From: an archaeon
GTDB taxonomy: Archaea; Thermoproteota; Nitrososphaeria; Nitrososphaerales; Gagatemarchaeaceae
NCBI GenBank assembly: GCA_021848045.1
Contig: JAJZNC010000060.1
Coordinates: forward strand, 1 to 64,000
DNA length: 64,000 nucleotides
Direction of reading: 5' to 3'
Shown here: one piece after another, positions 38,702-50,484 of the stretch
How the letters are laid out: each line of letters opens with the position of its first letter
Position numbering within the stretch: position 1 is the stretch's first letter
Notes under the pieces: generated by a model
The model's database searches: none
Told to the model about the DNA's origin: nothing
What the model saw: only the letters and a program-made list of their open reading frames with translations
Translations under genes and position numbers: made by a program

Positions 38702-39004
38702 TAGGTGGAGTAGCACGCCCCCAGGGGGTGGACTTAAACATTTTACAAACAAGATTTCGACGAAAACGAAACGGACGCTGTGGCCTGGGGCGGGAGAGCC
38801 CGTCCGGCCGGTCGCGGGAAGGCGAGTGCGAGAGAATACACGCGGGCGTGGGCTATATGGATGGGCGCCGGCACATGGGATTCACGAGCCCTTTCGGAGC
38901 TCACTAACGCCCATGCGACATGTGGTTTGACTTCTGGGATCGGACGAGTCCAGGTCGGACCCACACGCTATGGCCGGCTGGAGCGCGCGTGACCCGGAGG
39001 GGAT

Positions 39005-42432: not shown

Positions 42433-42569
42433 GGGGACGTAGCCCAGCCAGGTAAGGCAACAGGCTCCAGTGGTCAAACGACAAAGGTTTGATGACACGC
42501 TTTGCGTGGATGATATCCCATCGGAGCGGCGATACCTGTGGATCGTCGGTTCGAATCCGACCGTCCCCA
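42433..42569 (+). tRNA. tRNA-Trp(CCA) with 63-base intron
   Basis: Acceptor GGGGACG/CGTCCCC with discriminator A, T-arm GTCGG-TTCGAAT-CCGAC, and anticodon stem ACAGG/CCTGT around CTCCAG(A). The intron (42471-42533) lies at the canonical 37/38 position after anticodon CCA at 42467-42469. The intron contains TGATGA (42490-42495) and ATGATA (42510-42515), like the C and C' boxes of the box C/D guide RNA known in other archaeal tRNA-Trp introns, but no clear CTGA D box. TATA CTTTTAATC lies 30 bases upstream. Confidence 0.93.
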
Positions 42570-43124: not shown

Positions 43125-44681
43125 TCACCCGAGCGCAGCTAGGAGCCTGTCGCCTATCGGGCTCCCCCACCCGGTGCACGCGTCCCAGCCGGGGCCCGCC
43201 TTGTAGGCCCCGTTGTTCCCCTTGACGACGTCGGTGAAGGCAGAGGGGCTCCGGTAGAGGAGCGGGTTGACGTAGCCCACACGCTTACCTATCCCCTGGT
43301 TGATCAGGGCGAGGAGCCCGGTCCAGAGCGGCGCGACGGCGCTCGTCCCGCCCACGGTAGCCGCGCTGCCGTCCACGACTATCCCGTAGCCCGTCCGCGG
43401 GTCGGCGTCCCCAGACACGTCCGGGACGCCCCTACCGACCCGTCCGCCGGGGTTAGCGGAGGGCGGCACGTCGGCGCCCGCCTGCCAGGGAGGCATGGGA
43501 AAGACGTCGCTCACGCCGCCGCCGGTCGCCCCTCCGCTCGGGAGGTCGTCCCAGACCACCTGGCTGGATATCCTCCCCCCGCTAGCCGTGAGCCGCGTCC
43601 CCCCGCATCCGACCACGTACTGCGAGGAGGCGGGATAGTCGACGTGGGCTAGGCCGTCGTCCACCCCGTCAGACGAGCCGTTGTCCCCGGACGCCGCGCA
43701 GACCGTTACCCCCAGGACGGCGGCGTCCTGGAACGCCTGGTCGAGGGCGCCGATTCCCTGGGCGGTCCACTCGTCCTCGGCGCTTCCCCAGCTTATCGAG
43801 AGGACGGAAGGCTCTCCCTGCGCGCCGTGCAGGGCGGCGCCCACCCCGTCAACGAAGCCCGCGTCCGTGTTGGGGGCGAAGTAGACGAGGACATCGGCGT
43901 TCGGGGCGATCGCCCCTGCCACCTCGATGTCCAGCGAGACCTCGGCGTCTGGCCCTGCCGGGTCCCCGGTAGGGGAGTTCGTGGCCCCGTCGACGGAGAC
44001 GGCGGTCACGGATGGAGGGGCGATCCCCAGGCCGGAGAAGAAGGACAGGATGTCAGCACGGGAGTACCCTCCCCCGAGCTCGAGTATCCCGAACGACTGT
44101 CCTGAGCCGTCCAGGGAGGGATAGTCGTACAGCCGAGCGACCTCGGTGGGGGCGTAGGACACCCCCGCCTCGGCCTGCGGACGCATCCGGAAGTGCGTTC
44201 GCGCCTGGGGGCGGTTGTCGAGCCCGAGGACGGCCGCGACCACGGAGACCAGCTCCTCGGAGACGAAGACCGGGCCCACCCGGCCGCGATAGGAGCCGCG
44301 CGCAGGGTGCTCGCATCGGGCGAGGGTGACGTTGAACGCCTTCGAGAGCTGCCCGACGGTCCCCGAGAGGACGACGGAGCGCTTGGCGGCGCTCTCCTCG
44401 ACCACGGAAAGGGAGTTCTCGGCGGCGAAGTCCCTGACCTTCACGAGCTCCTCGCCGGCAGAGCCGAACTCCCTCTCGAACTCAAGGCGCGACAGGTACG
44501 TCCGGTCGCGAGGCCGGACCGAGGAGAGCTTCCTCACTAGCTCCAGCTCCCTCTCCGGCGACCGCGGGCGGAGGACGACCGTCACGCGCGCCACCTCCGC
44601 GGGGTCGGCCGGACCCGAGACCCGCGCGAGCCTGAGCGCTTTCCGCTCGCTCTGAGGCAGGGGGAGGAGACGAGTCGGCAC
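43125..44681 (-). CDS. Sedolisin (kumamolisin-like) acid serine protease S53
   Basis: The 518-residue protein has a Pro-kumamolisin activation domain (residues about 30-150) and the subtilisin-like sedolisin catalytic domain. Glu247 and Asp251 (AEVSLDIEVAG), oxyanion Asp333 (ASGDNG) and Ser447 (GGTSAVAP) make up the catalytic set; a Ca-binding C-terminus (SAFTDVVKGNN) is present. These enzymes act extracellularly at low pH. No N-terminal signal peptide is seen from the leaderless GTG start at 44681, which is well placed 26 bases from TCTTAAGA. Together with the peptide ABC importer it suggests protein scavenging. Confidence 0.92.
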   Translation of the reverse strand: MPTRLLPLPQSERKALRLARVSGPADPAEVARVTVVLRPRSPERELELVRKLSSVRPRDRTYLSRLEFEREFGSAGEELVKVRDFAAENSLSVVEESAAKRSVVLSGTVGQLSKAFNVTLARCEHPARGSYRGRVGPVFVSEELVSVVAAVLGLDNRPQARTHFRMRPQAEAGVSYAPTEVARLYDYPSLDGSGQSFGILELGGGYSRADILSFFSGLGIAPPSVTAVSVDGATNSPTGDPAGPDAEVSLDIEVAGAIAPNADVLVYFAPNTDAGFVDGVGAALHGAQGEPSVLSISWGSAEDEWTAQGIGALDQAFQDAAVLGVTVCAASGDNGSSDGVDDGLAHVDYPASSQYVVGCGGTRLTASGGRISSQVVWDDLPSGGATGGGVSDVFPMPPWQAGADVPPSANPGGRVGRGVPDVSGDADPRTGYGIVVDGSAATVGGTSAVAPLWTGLLALINQGIGKRVGYVNPLLYRSPSAFTDVVKGNNGAYKAGPGWDACTGWGSPIGDRLLAALG

Positions 44682-44762: not shown

Positions 44763-45350
44763 ATGGCTGTGGCACGCCTCGGGCGCGGGTTCTTCTCCCG
44801 TTACACACCGGAGGTCGCCAGGGACCTCCTGGGTTGTCTCATCGTCAGAGAGACCCGGGGGTCGAGGCTCTCGGGCAGGATAGTCGAGGCCGAGGCATAC
44901 AGGGGGAGCGACGACCCGGCGAGCCACTCATACCGAGGTGCGACCAAGAGGAGCGCGATGATGTTCGGGGAGGCCGGGAGGGCCTACGTCTACTTCGTGT
45001 ACGGCAACCACTGGTGCCTGAACTTCACGACGGAGGAAGAGGGCCAGCCGGGGGCAGTCCTGATCCGGGCGCTCGAGCCGGTGGAGGGGGTCGCCCGGAT
45101 GGCCAGGAGCAGAGGAGTGGACGACCTGAGGAGCCTCACCAGCGGGCCTGGCAGGCTCACGGAGGCCCTCTCGATAGGCGGGAGCTTCAACGGGGAGGAC
45201 GTCGTCACCTCGAAGAGGCTGCGCGTGGAGGGCCGCGCCGGGCAGGTTGAGGCTGGCACCTCGGCGAGGATAGGCGTCAGCAGCGGACGGGAGATGCGGT
45301 GGAGGTTCTTCGTGGTGGGGAACCCCTTCGTCTCGAAAGGCAAGGCATAA
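44763..45350 (+). CDS. 3-methyladenine DNA glycosylase (AAG/MPG family)
   Basis: The 195-residue enzyme has the AAG signature RIVEAEAYRGSDDPASHSYR with the catalytic Glu, then KRSAMMFGEAGRAYVYFVYG and GQPGAVLIRALEPVEG, plus the base-binding LTSGPGRLTEAL. It excises alkylated purines. ATG start at 44763; the gene is divergent from the sedolisin. The downstream tRNA-Pro promoter overlaps its 3' end. Confidence 0.93.
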   Translation: MAVARLGRGFFSRYTPEVARDLLGCLIVRETRGSRLSGRIVEAEAYRGSDDPASHSYRGATKRSAMMFGEAGRAYVYFVYGNHWCLNFTTEEEGQPGAVLIRALEPVEGVARMARSRGVDDLRSLTSGPGRLTEALSIGGSFNGEDVVTSKRLRVEGRAGQVEAGTSARIGVSSGREMRWRFFVVGNPFVSKGKA

Positions 45351-45380: not shown

Positions 45381-45510
45381 GGGGTCGTCGGCTAGGCTGC
45401 GGCCTTCGGTCCGCGGGGCTAGTCTGGTCTAGGCTTCAAATCGAAAGAAGAGGCCTTGGGAACGAGTTCAAGAGCGCTTGAGACCCCCGGTTCAAATCCG
45501 GGCGACCCCA
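45381..45510 (+). tRNA. tRNA-Pro(UGG) with three apparent introns
   Basis: Acceptor GGGGTCG/CGACCCC with discriminator A and T-arm CCCGG-TTCAAAT-CCGGG are intact. A normal 76-base tRNA results after removing 27 bases in the D-arm entrance (45390-45416; limits ambiguous because GGCTAG repeats), 13 bases in the anticodon stem (45440-45452, position 29/30) and 14 bases at 37/38 (45461-45474). The mature stem is CAAGC/GCTTG with loop CTTGGGC, anticodon TGG at 45457-45459, D-stem GGCT/GGCT, variable AGACC. Base accounting is exact. The first intron contains GCGG-CCTTCGGT-CCGC. TATA CATAACTA lies about 30 bases upstream. Confidence 0.85.
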
Positions 45511-45574
45511 CCAACACCATCCCCTCCCCTTGTCATTGAACGGCCAGGCCGGGGCTCACAGGCCTTCTGGTTCC

Positions 45575-45617: not shown

Positions 45618-45693
45618 CCCGCCCGTCCCAGGAAGCGGAAGCTCCAGCACGCAAGGACAGAGCCGAATCCGTTCGGGAGATGTGGATTTTATT

Positions 45694-45722
45694 TGACATT
45701 AGGTGATGTCATAATTATATAG
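45694..45722 (+). promoter_or_regulatory. TGACAT inverted-repeat operator next to TATA of the NrdD-like gene
   Basis: TGACAT-(6)-ATGTCA at 45694-45711 is a perfect inverted repeat. It abuts the TATA region ATAATTATATAG (45711-45722), which lies about 30 bases before the ATG at 45747. This is a natural position for an autoregulator. Confidence 0.65.
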
Positions 45723-45746: not shown

Positions 45747-47834
45747 ATGCAGGCAGCCCCCCGTCGAGTCAGAACGATCTACAGCGTCATCGCCTCCCCG
45801 CAGAGGCTCGAGATCCTCAAGATCCTGAACGTCAAGGGGCCGCTGACGTACAGCGCGCTAAAGTCGCTCGCGGGCTTCAAGTCGAAGAAGGAATCGGGCA
45901 AGTTCGCCTACCACCTGAGGAAGCTGGTCAGGCAGCTCCTCATACAGCTCAACAGGCAGGAGAGGAAGTACACTGTCACAAACCTCGGGAGGCTCGTGCT
46001 CAACCTCACGAGGCAGATCGAGGAGCAGTCGCTGATAGAGAGCGGCAAGCTCTACGTGAGGACCACGAGGCAGGCGATGGAGGAGTTCAACGCGGACAAG
46101 ATACTCCAGTCGCTCGTCAAGGAGGCGGGGATGCCCGTCGAGCTCGCCCAGAAGATAACCAGCGAGACAGAGTCGAGGCTCTACAAGTTCCAAACCCAAT
46201 ACCTCACGGCCCCCCTGATCAGGGAGATGGTCAACTCGCTCCTCGTCGAGCAGAACCTCGAGGAGTACAGGCACAAGCTCACGCGACTGGGGCTCCCTGT
46301 CTTCGACGTCACGCAGCTACTGGCCAGGGCGGGCGGAGACGGGGGGGACGCCGAGTCCCTCCTCCACCAGACGGGCAAATCCGTCTTCTCAGAATACCTG
46401 CTCCTAGAGCAGCTGCCCAGAGACGTCTCCGACGCCCACCTCAACGGTGACATTCACATCTCGCAGGCGGGGACGTGGGCGCTCATCCCTGACACCGTGT
46501 TCCTGGACCTCCTCTCCGTCAGGGCGTCGGGGTTCAACCCGAAGGGGAGGCTGCCGGGCGTCCCAATGCTTCAGGGTCCGACCAACCTGGAGGAGGCCGT
46601 CAACGTGGTCGCGAACATAGCGCCCCTCATCAAGAAGGAGGCGAACCAGGAGGTGGTCTTCAGGAACTTCCTGCAGTACGTCGCGCAGTTCACCAGGTCC
46701 AGGACCAAGAAGGAGGTGGCGGACGCCCTCAGCAAGCTCTTCGACCAGGTCTCTTCGTCGCTACAGCCGATGCAGAGGCCCGCGGTCACCCTCCAGCTCG
46801 ACGTCTACGTCAAGGACGACGCGGGACGCGAGCTGATGGACAAGGCGCTGGGGGCGACCATGGACGCCTACAGGGACTACGTCGAGATGGTGCCGAGGCC
46901 GGAGGTGCGCCTCCTCCTCGCCAAGCCTGCCAAGTCAGAGGAGACGTGGTACCTCAAGGAGGCGGCCGCGCTGATCTTCCACGGCGGCAAGGTGAGCTTC
47001 TTCCAGTCGGGGCAGAAGCGGAGCTCGCTCGGGATAAACCCGGACGTCCTGCCTCAGGACCACCAGGGCGACAACGTGAGCGTGCTGCACAACCTCAGCA
47101 TAAACCTCCCGCGGCTCTCGTACGAGTCCAACCAGGACGAGACGTACTTCAGGGCGAAGCTCTCGATGCTCATGGGGGTGGCCTCCGACGCCCTTCTCAC
47201 CAGGAGGCGGCTGCTCGAGAGGGTGATGAACAAGGGGCTCCTCCCGACGCTCAGCTTCGGCTCGGACAACGTGAGCTCAGACTCGATGCCGCTCGTCATG
47301 AACCTGGTGGGGCTCGACGAGGCAATCTACGGACTGGGGAGGGAGGCCGCGCCCGCGGCGAGGGCAGAGCTGGCGTCCAAGATCCTCGCCACCGCGTCCC
47401 AGTCGGCAAGGGAGAGGTCCGGAAAGGGCGAGAGGCTCGCGATAGCGCTCATCGAGGAGGAAGGGGCTGCGCGGATGGCCGCGCTGGACGCCGAGAGGTA
47501 CGGGAGGGCGAACCTCCAGAGCCTCGAGAGGAGGGGCTACTCTCAGGCCGCGAGGCTCACGATGGAGGACCTAGGGAACGCCGAGACGATGGCACATCTG
47601 GCGAAGCTGGGCCAGGGGGCTGCGGGGGGCCTGTCGGTCTACCTGGACGCGACGGCGCTCGACCCGAGGGGGATCTACAACCTGGCCGCGAGCGCATCCC
47701 CGAGCCTCGACTTCTTCGGGGTCGAGAGGCTCGTCTCCTTCTGCCGCAACTGCGGCTCGAAGCTCCCCGCCAAGACTGAGAGGTGCACGAAGTGCAGGTC
47801 CACGGCGACCGCCCAATATTCGACAGCCGAATAA
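45747..47834 (+). CDS. Winged-helix + ATP-cone + catalytically dead NrdD-like protein; candidate RNR regulator
   Basis: The 695-residue protein has an ArsR-like winged helix (residues about 10-90: ASPQRLEILKILN, KFAYHLRKLVRQLL), an ATP-cone (about 100-190: EEFNADKILQSLVKEAG, YLTAPLIREMVNSLLVEQ), and a body like anaerobic RNR NrdD (SDAHLNGDIHI, LSINLPRLSYESNQDETYFR, VGLDEAIYGLG). The C-terminus keeps a zinc site (CRNC...CTKC) but the RVxGY glycyl-radical tail is missing, and these four are the only Cys in the protein, so no thiyl-radical Cys exists. It is not an active reductase. The adjacent gene is class II RNR. ATG is leaderless. Function as an ATP/dATP-sensing regulator is inference. Confidence 0.85.
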   Translation: MQAAPRRVRTIYSVIASPQRLEILKILNVKGPLTYSALKSLAGFKSKKESGKFAYHLRKLVRQLLIQLNRQERKYTVTNLGRLVLNLTRQIEEQSLIESGKLYVRTTRQAMEEFNADKILQSLVKEAGMPVELAQKITSETESRLYKFQTQYLTAPLIREMVNSLLVEQNLEEYRHKLTRLGLPVFDVTQLLARAGGDGGDAESLLHQTGKSVFSEYLLLEQLPRDVSDAHLNGDIHISQAGTWALIPDTVFLDLLSVRASGFNPKGRLPGVPMLQGPTNLEEAVNVVANIAPLIKKEANQEVVFRNFLQYVAQFTRSRTKKEVADALSKLFDQVSSSLQPMQRPAVTLQLDVYVKDDAGRELMDKALGATMDAYRDYVEMVPRPEVRLLLAKPAKSEETWYLKEAAALIFHGGKVSFFQSGQKRSSLGINPDVLPQDHQGDNVSVLHNLSINLPRLSYESNQDETYFRAKLSMLMGVASDALLTRRRLLERVMNKGLLPTLSFGSDNVSSDSMPLVMNLVGLDEAIYGLGREAAPAARAELASKILATASQSARERSGKGERLAIALIEEEGAARMAALDAERYGRANLQSLERRGYSQAARLTMEDLGNAETMAHLAKLGQGAAGGLSVYLDATALDPRGIYNLAASASPSLDFFGVERLVSFCRNCGSKLPAKTERCTKCRSTATAQYSTAE

Positions 47835-47849
47835 GCTAGACAAAACGGT

Positions 47850-47880
47850 TTGACATTCTGTCAACTTCGGTTGACTTGAA
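47850..47880. promoter_or_regulatory. TTGACA repeat cluster between the NrdD-like gene and nrdJ
   Basis: TTGACA-TTC-TGTCAA (47850-47864) is a perfect inverted repeat, and TTGACTTGAA (47871-47880) adds a third similar half-site. The half-site matches the one at 45694. Fifteen bases downstream of the regulator stop and about 220 bases before the nrdJ TATA box (48080-48087). The rest of the 270-base gap shows no gene; it contains a small palindrome TGGAATTATTCCA. Confidence 0.55.
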
Positions 47881-48105
47881 CCCCGGACGAGGGCGCGGGA
47901 CCCCTCCGCGCGGAGGCGTGGAATTATTCCAAAGATCCCGCAGAAGACCGGGGAGACCCGTGAGAGCAGGCCCTATCGCTTACGCTGACTCCATGGCAGG
48001 ACACACATGTAACCGACGTGAGCGCAATCGCGAGTTGTAACGGCGCGGTATCGACGGAGGAATCTTTGCCGGCGTAAGGTATTAAGGCTGCCGTTGGTTA
48101 ACGAT

Positions 48106-50484
48106 TTGTCCACCGAGAACCAGATAAAGGGTGTCCGTCGGCCAGAGTGCGCGAATTGTTATTTGACGACTGAGATTGAATCTAACAACGAAAGCGGGTT
48201 GAGCGAGCAGCCGCCCCAGCGGACGGAGGTGACCCTGCCCAGGGAGACCCTCGACGCGTTCGGGGAGGACGAGCTCAGGGCCCGTGTCTTCTACGAAAAG
48301 TACGCGCTGAGGGACGAGTCGGGCAAGCAGGTCGAGACGGTCCCAAAGCAGCTCTGGCGGAGGGTCGCCAGCGAGCTCGCGTCGGTGGAGGTCAACGAGT
48401 CCAAGAAGGGCGAGTGGACGGACAAGTTCTACTGGCTGCTCGACGACTTCAAGTTCGTACCCGGCGGAAGGATAATGTTCGGGGCTGGGCAGTCAAGGAG
48501 GTCGACGCTCCTGAACTGCTACTTCTTCAAAATAAGGGAGGACTCGATAGAGGCGATCTTCGACTGGTGCAAGGAGGCGGCGAGGACCTACAGCTTCGGC
48601 GGAGGGGTTGGGACTGACATATCCGTGCTGAGGCCGCGCGGGACGCCCGTGAACAACTCGGCGATAGTCAGCTCTGGCTCCGTCTCGTTCATGGAGCTCC
48701 TCTCCACCACGACAGGGACAATCGGTCAGGCGGGGAGGAGGGGGGCGCTGATGATCACCCTCAGGGTTGACCACCCGGACATATTCGACTTCATCAACGT
48801 GAAGAAGGACCTGAAGAAGGTGAACTATGCTAACATCTCGGTGAAGGTCACCGACGAGTTCATGGAGGCCGTCGAGAGCGACGGGGAGTTCACGCTCAGG
48901 TTCAAGAACGAGAAGGCGAGCATGGAGAAGAAGGTCAGAGCGAGGGAGGTCTGGAACTCGCTCGTGAAGGCGGCGTGGCAGAGCGACGAGCCCGGCCTCA
49001 TATTCTGGGACACCATCAAGAGGGACTCCACCACCGAGTACAACGGGATGGCGGTGGAGGGAGTCAACCCCTGCAGCGAGCAGACGCTCGAGAACTACGG
49101 CTGCTGCTGCCTGGGCTCGATCAACCTAAGCGCGTTCGTGAAGGACTCGTTCACTGACAGGGCGAGCGTAGACTGGGCAGGCCTGACAAAGGCCGCGCAG
49201 TACGCGACCAGGTTCCTGGACAACGTGCTCGACTACAACGCCGACAAGCACCCGCTGCCGCAGCAGAAGAAGGCGTCTCTCTGGTCGAGACGGGTCGGGG
49301 TGGGCACCACCGGGCTCGGGGACATGCTCATCAAGCTCGGCAGGAAGTACGACGAGGAGCCGACGGTCGAGTTCGTCGACAAGCTCTTCGAGAGGATAAC
49401 CAACGTCATCTACGACTACTCCGCGGAGCTGGCGAAGGAGAAGGGGCCGGCCCCCGCCTTCGAGGCTGAGAAGCACCTCGCCCAGCCGTTCGTCAAGAGG
49501 CTGGACGCGGGCGTAAGGGATAAGATCAGGGCGCAGGGGATAAGGAACTCCGCCCTCACGACGGTACCCCCGGTGGGCTCTGGCTCCATCTTCGTGGGGT
49601 CGTCGAGCGGCGTGGAGCCCGTCTTCGCCCTCTACTACACGAGGAGGTCCAAGTCCCTCAGCGAGGGGGAGTTCAAGGTCTGGCACCCCCTGGTCAAGGA
49701 GTACATGCGGGTGTTCAGGGTCACCGACGAGGACACGCTCCCTGGATACTTCGTCACAGCGCACCAGATCAAGCCCGAGATGAGGGTGAGGATGCAGGCG
49801 GCCATCCAGAAGCACATCGACACGGCCATATCGAGCACCGTCAACCTCCCCCAGGAGACCTCGACCGAGGAGGTCGAGAAGGTCTACTTCCTCGCCTGGA
49901 AGCTCGGCTGCAAGGGCATCACCATCTACAGGGAAGGGAGCAGGGAGGGGATCCTCGAGACGACCAACGTCGACAAGAAGGAGGCGGGGGCGGCCCCGAG
50001 GGAGGAACCCAGGCAGGAGGCCGCCGGGGCGTTCGAGAGGCCCAAGGTAATGGTCGGGAGGACGCTGAAGCTCAAGCTCCCCCAGGGAGGGCTCTACGTC
50101 ACCGCCAACTCAGACGAGGTCGGGACCCTGAAGGAGGTGTTCGTGACGCTGGGCAAGCTGGGCGGCGACGAGAAGGCGGACGCCGAGGCGATAGGGAGGC
50201 TCATCAGCCTCTACCTCCAGCACGGCGGTGAGATCCAGAGCGTGGTGAACATGCTCAAGGGCATCCGCGGCAAGTACGTCTCGTGGGACGAGGGGGTCCA
50301 GTTGCTCTCGATCCCGGACGCCGTGGCAAAGGCACTCGAGGTGCTGACGGCGGGGAAGGTCAAGAAGGAGGCGGCCACCCCGCTCACCCAGGGCGGGACC
50401 TGCCCCGACTGCCACGAGAACGCCCTCATCTTCGAGGGAGGGTGCTACAAGTGCACCAGCTGCGGGTACTCAAAGTGCGAATAG
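48106..50484 (+). CDS. nrdJ: Class II (adenosylcobalamin-dependent) ribonucleotide reductase
   Basis: The 792-residue NrdJ reduces ribonucleotides to deoxyribonucleotides. Conserved pieces are NCYFFKIREDSIEAIFD with its Cys, SFGGGVGTDISVLRPRG, the active-site GVNPCSEQ, TTVPPVGSGSIFVGSSSGVEP, and WKLGCKGITIYREGSR. The C-terminal region (TCPDCHENALIFEGGCYKC, CGYSKCE) supplies redox or zinc Cys. There is no N-terminal ATP-cone, so it lacks the usual overall-activity site. TTG at 48106 is leaderless from TATTAAGG (48080-48087); 12 bases longer to 48094 is possible. The upstream NrdD-like protein holds the ATP-cone instead. Confidence 0.95.
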   Translation: MSTENQIKGVRRPECANCYLTTEIESNNESGLSEQPPQRTEVTLPRETLDAFGEDELRARVFYEKYALRDESGKQVETVPKQLWRRVASELASVEVNESKKGEWTDKFYWLLDDFKFVPGGRIMFGAGQSRRSTLLNCYFFKIREDSIEAIFDWCKEAARTYSFGGGVGTDISVLRPRGTPVNNSAIVSSGSVSFMELLSTTTGTIGQAGRRGALMITLRVDHPDIFDFINVKKDLKKVNYANISVKVTDEFMEAVESDGEFTLRFKNEKASMEKKVRAREVWNSLVKAAWQSDEPGLIFWDTIKRDSTTEYNGMAVEGVNPCSEQTLENYGCCCLGSINLSAFVKDSFTDRASVDWAGLTKAAQYATRFLDNVLDYNADKHPLPQQKKASLWSRRVGVGTTGLGDMLIKLGRKYDEEPTVEFVDKLFERITNVIYDYSAELAKEKGPAPAFEAEKHLAQPFVKRLDAGVRDKIRAQGIRNSALTTVPPVGSGSIFVGSSSGVEPVFALYYTRRSKSLSEGEFKVWHPLVKEYMRVFRVTDEDTLPGYFVTAHQIKPEMRVRMQAAIQKHIDTAISSTVNLPQETSTEEVEKVYFLAWKLGCKGITIYREGSREGILETTNVDKKEAGAAPREEPRQEAAGAFERPKVMVGRTLKLKLPQGGLYVTANSDEVGTLKEVFVTLGKLGGDEKADAEAIGRLISLYLQHGGEIQSVVNMLKGIRGKYVSWDEGVQLLSIPDAVAKALEVLTAGKVKKEAATPLTQGGTCPDCHENALIFEGGCYKCTSCGYSKCE

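Follow-up and report, generated by a model that had tools for sequence, protein, structure and literature searches.

The window analysed here, a stretch of 64,000 nucleotides from an archaeon of the order Nitrososphaerales, carries a gene for a large protein of composite build, called the regulator below after its proposed role, followed on the same strand by nrdJ, which encodes a class II ribonucleotide reductase (RNR). Their features are listed in Table 1. Pfam profiles recover three successive regions in the regulator: a winged helix (DUF7347/HTH_20, residues 11-85, with DUF7347 over its cut-off), an ATP-cone (residues 103-174, 27.9 bits for a cut-off of 25.8) and a body related to the class III reductase NrdD (NRDD, residues 206-687, 94.8 bits). 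This is the combination that the initial annotation had read from the locus.

Table 1. Features of the regulator-nrdJ locus (positions in the window)
Feature	Position	Strand	Remarks
Candidate operator GTGGATTTTATTTGAC, regulator's own promoter	45682..45697	+	one mismatch to GTSAA-N6-TTSAC
Inverted repeat TGACATTAGGTGATGTCA, from the initial annotation	45694..45711	+	not conserved
TATA-like element TTATATA of the regulator gene	45715..45721	+	presumed, read from the sequence
Regulator gene	45747..47834	+	695 aa; predicted winged helix, ATP-cone, inactive NrdD body, zinc ribbon
Winged-helix domain	45768..46031	+	approx. residues 8-95; DUF7347/HTH_20; ArsR-family PDB chains
ATP-cone	46038..46316	+	approx. 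residues 98-190; PF03477 above cut-off
NrdD (class III RNR) body	46362..47726	+	approx. residues 206-660; PF13597, Foldseek, hhalign
Zinc ribbon C666, C669, C680, C683	47742..47795	+	no glycyl-radical loop after it
Candidate operator dyad GACAAAACGGTTTGAC	47839..47854	+	one mismatch; 21 bp before next dyad
Candidate operator dyad GTCAACTTCGGTTGAC	47860..47875	+	exact match
nrdJ, class II ribonucleotide reductase, no ATP-cone	48163..50484	+	TIGR02504, NPCSE; listed ORF opens at TTG 48094

The winged helix is assigned from profile matches. DUF7347, HTH_20 and the ATP-cone were matched in 24 of the 24 N-terminal regions of members that were scanned, and the family profile matches ArsR-family PDB chains at E 5e-4. 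The core of the domain, GF-x-SKKESGKFAYHLRKL with K or R at x, is invariant across the order. In the AlphaFold model its pLDDT is 34-45, and the N-terminus scores low in both predictions made, for which the alignment was too uniform or absent. The ATP-cone carries VRTT/S where a KRDG stretch is usual.

The product of nrdJ scores 551 bits against TIGR02504 (cut-off 400), carries the active-site motif NPCSE and is the only RNR barrel-family match in the genome, which is 88% complete. A profile search gave no ATP-cone match in this NrdJ, in agreement with its first description. Relatives align to it from residue 22-24 on, so that translation probably begins at the in-frame TTG at 48163.

A pro-kumamolisin/subtilase-type peptidase gene (43125-44681) and a methylpurine-DNA glycosylase gene (44763-45350) lie upstream of the regulator. 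Just upstream of it a tRNA-like 3' half, GGTTCAAATCCGGGCGACCCCA, occurs at 45414-45513 of the window, and such a 3' half also lies upstream of the regulator in ten relatives (L027, L028, L030, L036, L039, L041-L044 and L052). Neither ARAGORN nor Rfam calls a tRNA at 45414-45513, perhaps because of an intron. Further upstream, an Rfam tRNA match at 42433-42569 (+) is unusually long (137 bases) and probably contains an intron. A 5S rRNA gene is located at 38863-38981 (-).

Catalytic motifs and origin of the regulator family

Homology to NrdD extends over most of the regulator. An hhalign profile comparison with intact NrdDs of its phylum spans the ATP-cone, the body and the zinc ribbon (586 columns, E 1.2e-35). 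The structure prediction that the initial annotation had suggested points the same way: the NRDD body was modelled with high confidence by AlphaFold, its best PDB match is the NrdD of T. maritima (4coj, E 2e-20), and T4 NrdD is also matched in Foldseek. Against the NrdD equivalog profile TIGR02487, the regulator reaches 83 bits for a cut-off of 326.

The residues on which NrdD catalysis depends are missing. The only cysteines of the protein are 666, 669, 680 and 683. No cysteine precedes residue 666 that could be the thiyl-radical residue of the barrel, and the family has no conserved column for one, its sole conserved cysteines being these four. The early reading of the protein as devoid of a thiyl-radical cysteine, with the four zinc ligands as its only cysteines, is thus confirmed both in the protein itself and in the family. 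Aligned to the intact NrdDs, the regulator has no counterpart of MCCR (with the thiyl cysteine), PYC, the ENxNM flap or the RVVGY glycyl loop, the last of which bears out the claim that the glycyl-radical tail is absent. Its C-terminus falls just past the zinc ribbon, with no RVxGY loop. The members outside the order that were read likewise lack an RVxGY-like glycyl motif and conserve no cysteines but the four of the zinc ribbon. The genome contains nine radical-SAM matches, among which a counterpart of the NrdD activase NrdG might lie. Judged from its sequence, the regulator is an NrdD descendant without the defining catalytic features of that enzyme.

Of 61 genomes sampled from Nitrososphaerales, 55 contain an orthologue, and all 28 sampled genera are represented, the ammonia-oxidiser-type families included; nearly all orthologues are full length from the winged helix to the zinc ribbon. 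Named orthologue records belong to Nitrososphaerales/Thaumarchaeota, among them Ca. Gagatemarchaeum. Relatives were searched within the window's own phylum, where the family is widespread: about 26 further families carry the same build in a profile search. No member was found in the plasmids and phages searched. The sole plasmid match, from Methanomethylovorans, is a canonical NrdD that has the RVTGY motif, and the hypothetical gene before it, which has no Pfam match, does not belong to the regulator family. In an unrooted tree, one branch (support 100/99) parts the regulators from the intact NrdDs, a topology compatible with a single origin of the family.

Conservation is unevenly distributed along the protein. 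Pairwise identity among 25 diverse members of the order averages 78% in the winged helix and 69% in the ATP-cone but 34% in the reductase body, while intact NrdDs of the phylum are conserved along their whole length (71% mean column identity). This pattern, with a drifting body behind conserved N-terminal domains, suggests that the regulator is kept for DNA binding and nucleotide sensing, and the NrdD body appears to act as a scaffold. Homology over the whole body could also be taken to mean that the protein still works as a reductase, or that its gene is a pseudogene in decay. We consider this highly improbable: the thiyl cysteine and the glycyl loop are absent throughout the family, and a pseudogene would hardly retain an intact frame in 28 of 28 genera together with a winged helix that is 78% identical.

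Ribonucleotide reductase genes and other neighbours

The conserved linkage to RNR genes for which a search had been proposed is evident throughout the order. In 56 of 58 loci the regulator is immediately followed by an RNR gene in the same orientation, and the other two loci (L046, L097) are truncated where the contig ends. By coordinates, an RNR gene also follows in 48 of 49 further genomes, the exception belonging to a fragmented assembly. The linked enzyme has been exchanged between several NrdJ types across the order. These comprise the window-type NrdJ without an ATP-cone, an NrdJ with an ATP-cone and an NrdJ of about 1050 aa with 28% identity. Downstream NrdJ proteins without an ATP-cone occur in the lineage of the window and in several others, and those with one occur in the ammonia-oxidiser-type families and in L091, L098 and L107. 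The proposal that the regulator took over ATP/dATP sensing from the enzyme is contradicted as a general rule by the many linked NrdJ proteins that carry an ATP-cone; since the domain is kept there, sensors in the enzyme and in the regulator would often coexist.

In seven relatives (L031, L041, L047, L049, L052, L057 and L099) nrdJ is interrupted, often just after the conserved LLNC (residue 142 of the NrdJ in the window), as expected of inteins. The nrdJ of L052 has more than one break, and in that of L099 one break is read through as a frame of 1149 aa.

The regulator might act on a protein partner rather than on DNA, with the dead NrdD binding the adjacent RNR or an RNR intermediate and tuning its activity while the winged helix serves for protein contact. 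Its kinship with RNR and its place beside RNR genes would suit such a role. However, the neighbouring RNR changes in type and even in class while the winged helix is nearly fixed, and the dyads described below are enriched at both promoters. This makes direct action on the enzyme quite unlikely, though not as unlikely as the reductase or pseudogene proposal.

Outside the order the neighbourhood is more varied. The regulator directly precedes an intact NrdD gene in 8 of the 31 genomes in which both genes were located, and both of the regulator-linked NrdD proteins that were read contain the glycyl motif (RVTGY/RITGY). In one locus (L148) it precedes nrdJ. Genes of pyrimidine synthesis, the aspartate carbamoyltransferase genes pyrB and/or pyrI, lie beside regulator relatives in 9 of 19 loci (L139, L143, L146, L149, L150, L151, L153, L156 and L157). 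Among the outside-order loci read, these neighbours are commoner than RNR genes, linkage to which is a minority condition there. The adjacency hints at a tie between regulator relatives and pyrimidine synthesis. A dCTP deaminase gene lies directly downstream of the regulator in L158 (9625-10164), and a glutaredoxin gene is located between the regulator and nrdD in L152 (7185-7490).

It is possible, if clearly the less favoured option, that the protein, as a nucleotide-sensing and DNA-binding regulator, originally acted on genes for nucleotide biosynthesis at large (pyrBI, dcd, nrdD, nrdJ) and that control of nrdJ only is a specialisation of Nitrososphaerales. The pyrB and pyrI neighbours, the dCTP deaminase, the glutaredoxin together with nrdD and the occurrence of the regulator build in some 26 further families are all in keeping with such a history. 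The pyrBI genes are, however, mostly on the opposite strand to the regulator, end to end or adjacent, which weakens the case for shared control.

Candidate operators

A 16-bp dyad, GTSAA-N6-TTSAC, recurs in many of the regions around the regulator. Allowing at most one mismatch, a dyad with a gap of 6 occurs in 19 of 33 deduplicated regulator-RNR intergenic regions (shuffles: mean 1.3, maximum 5) and upstream of 14 of 31 regulator orthologues (shuffles: mean 0.5, maximum 4); these loci are also the ones that yielded the pattern, so that the enrichments describe the data and are no independent test. Fairer checks are provided by a gap control, a window-wide scan and a genome-wide scan. Other gaps from 0 to 15 give at most 4 intergenic regions each. 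Only three sites in the 64-kb window match with one mismatch or none, and all of them lie in the regulator promoter or before nrdJ. The exact dyad is found at three sites in the whole genome, and the one linked to RNR is the only one seen to recur within the genus, where an exact dyad lies beside the regulator in 7 of the 7 genomes having the locus. The other two (C34:3557 and C51:166017) look like chance or local cases. The latter, GTCAACGGTCGTTGAC (L161, contig C51 of G000, 166017-166032), lies shortly before a gene whose product combines a winged helix with a probable membrane segment, and it may be due to chance or represent a second target. A wide regulon was considered and rejected: genomes contain about 0-10 exact dyads each, frequently close to the count for a reversed-pattern control. 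In ammonia oxidisers the motif has drifted or is unconvincing.

These sites only partly coincide with the operator repeats of the initial annotation. Its downstream repeat (47850-47880) overlaps the two dyads before nrdJ, whose motif is found in many families. Its upstream repeat (45694-45711) was rejected as an operator, the TGAC-N10-GTCA spacing occurring in 1 of 31 upstream regions.

In many relatives the upstream copy reads GTTAAATACTTTTGAC and overlaps the TATA box. Where the dyad covers this element, autorepression is likely. Before nrdJ, where the distance is clear, the dyad lies 84-88 bp from a TATA-like element in several loci and about 61 bp in others; the loci are too few for a fixed spacing to be claimed. 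With dyads upstream of the TATA-like elements, both activation and repression at a distance would be possible there.

An origin of the dyads as RNA hairpins, terminators or core promoter elements is also conceivable, because they are located between two genes and the TATA box falls within the dyad in the regulator promoters of several relatives. Against this, 17 of the 19 dyads with one mismatch or none leave one or more positions unpaired, so that a perfect RNA stem would not form, and the motif recurs with a strict gap of 6 in the regulator promoter as well as in the intergenic region. Such an origin appears improbable, though slightly less so than direct action on the enzyme, and we retain the dyads as candidate operators.

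Proposed mechanism and comparison with known systems

We propose that the regulator is an NrdD-derived, nucleotide-sensing transcription regulator of RNR and also of its own gene, and we assign this reading a probability of roughly three in four; its DNA binding, its ligand and the direction of control are inferred. It would stem from a class III ribonucleotide reductase whose radical chemistry was lost and which gained an ArsR-like winged helix ahead of its ATP-cone. The ATP-cone, perhaps together with the old effector site of NrdD, would read the nucleotide state, probably ATP versus dATP. Such a reading could change the oligomeric state or the domain geometry, and the winged helices would then bind or release the GTSAA-N6-TTSAC dyads at the adjacent RNR gene and at the regulator's own promoter. 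The replacement of KRDG by VRTT/S makes the ligand less sure. However, an archaeal intact NrdD has VRTTDG at this position, which suggests that ATP/dATP is the likely ligand.

Taken across the phylum, the members probably form a family of transcription factors derived from class III RNR, although we hold this wider reading with less assurance than the one for the locus itself. A whole enzyme would serve in them as a dNTP sensor for RNR, and perhaps for pyrimidine genes, as an independent counterpart of NrdR. If this is true, a complete reductase has been turned into a regulator, and the ATP-cone has been recruited twice independently for the control of RNR genes. The relation of RNR expression to dNTP levels in archaea without NrdR is so far undescribed in the open-licence literature searched. 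The family is easily filed as NrdD by homology, and genomes credited with an anaerobic RNR from the regulator protein alone would be misread. The suspicion that the system might be undescribed still stands: no description of a winged-helix NrdD family was found in the open-licence literature, and an earlier mention elsewhere is possible.

The regulator combines parts that are known separately. It shares a DNA-binding domain, identified by profile, with ArsR-type/DUF7347 regulators. However, the matched PDB chains of these are of about 100-150 residues, whereas the regulator joins the domain to a dead RNR with a likely sensor. It shares with NrdD the ATP-cone, the barrel fold and the zinc ribbon, in the same order. 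It differs from NrdD in having lost the thiyl cysteine, the NxN flap and the glycyl-radical loop, in the added winged helix and in a conservation that has shifted from the body to the N-terminus.

The closest functional parallel is NrdR, the bacterial RNR repressor composed of a zinc ribbon and an ATP-cone, which is described as rare in archaea in the NrdR papers. The NrdR profile TIGR00244 gave no match over its cut-off for the regulator, and an NrdR above that cut-off was found in 0 of 61 relatives. The analogy drawn at the outset, to NrdR but with a different build, fits the results. Both join an ATP-cone to a DNA-binding domain (predicted here), both are linked to RNR genes, and both have 16-bp dyads near these genes (identified in silico here). 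A distance of 21 bp, close to two turns of the helix, separates the two dyads before nrdJ; for NrdR, binding is best when its boxes are a whole number of turns apart (PMC12051234). The differences lie in the architecture: the regulator has an N-terminal winged helix and a C-terminal zinc ribbon, whereas the zinc ribbon of NrdR is N-terminal. The archaeal protein also carries an entire dead NrdD, is 695 residues long compared with roughly 150 for NrdR, and is associated with a different candidate operator sequence.
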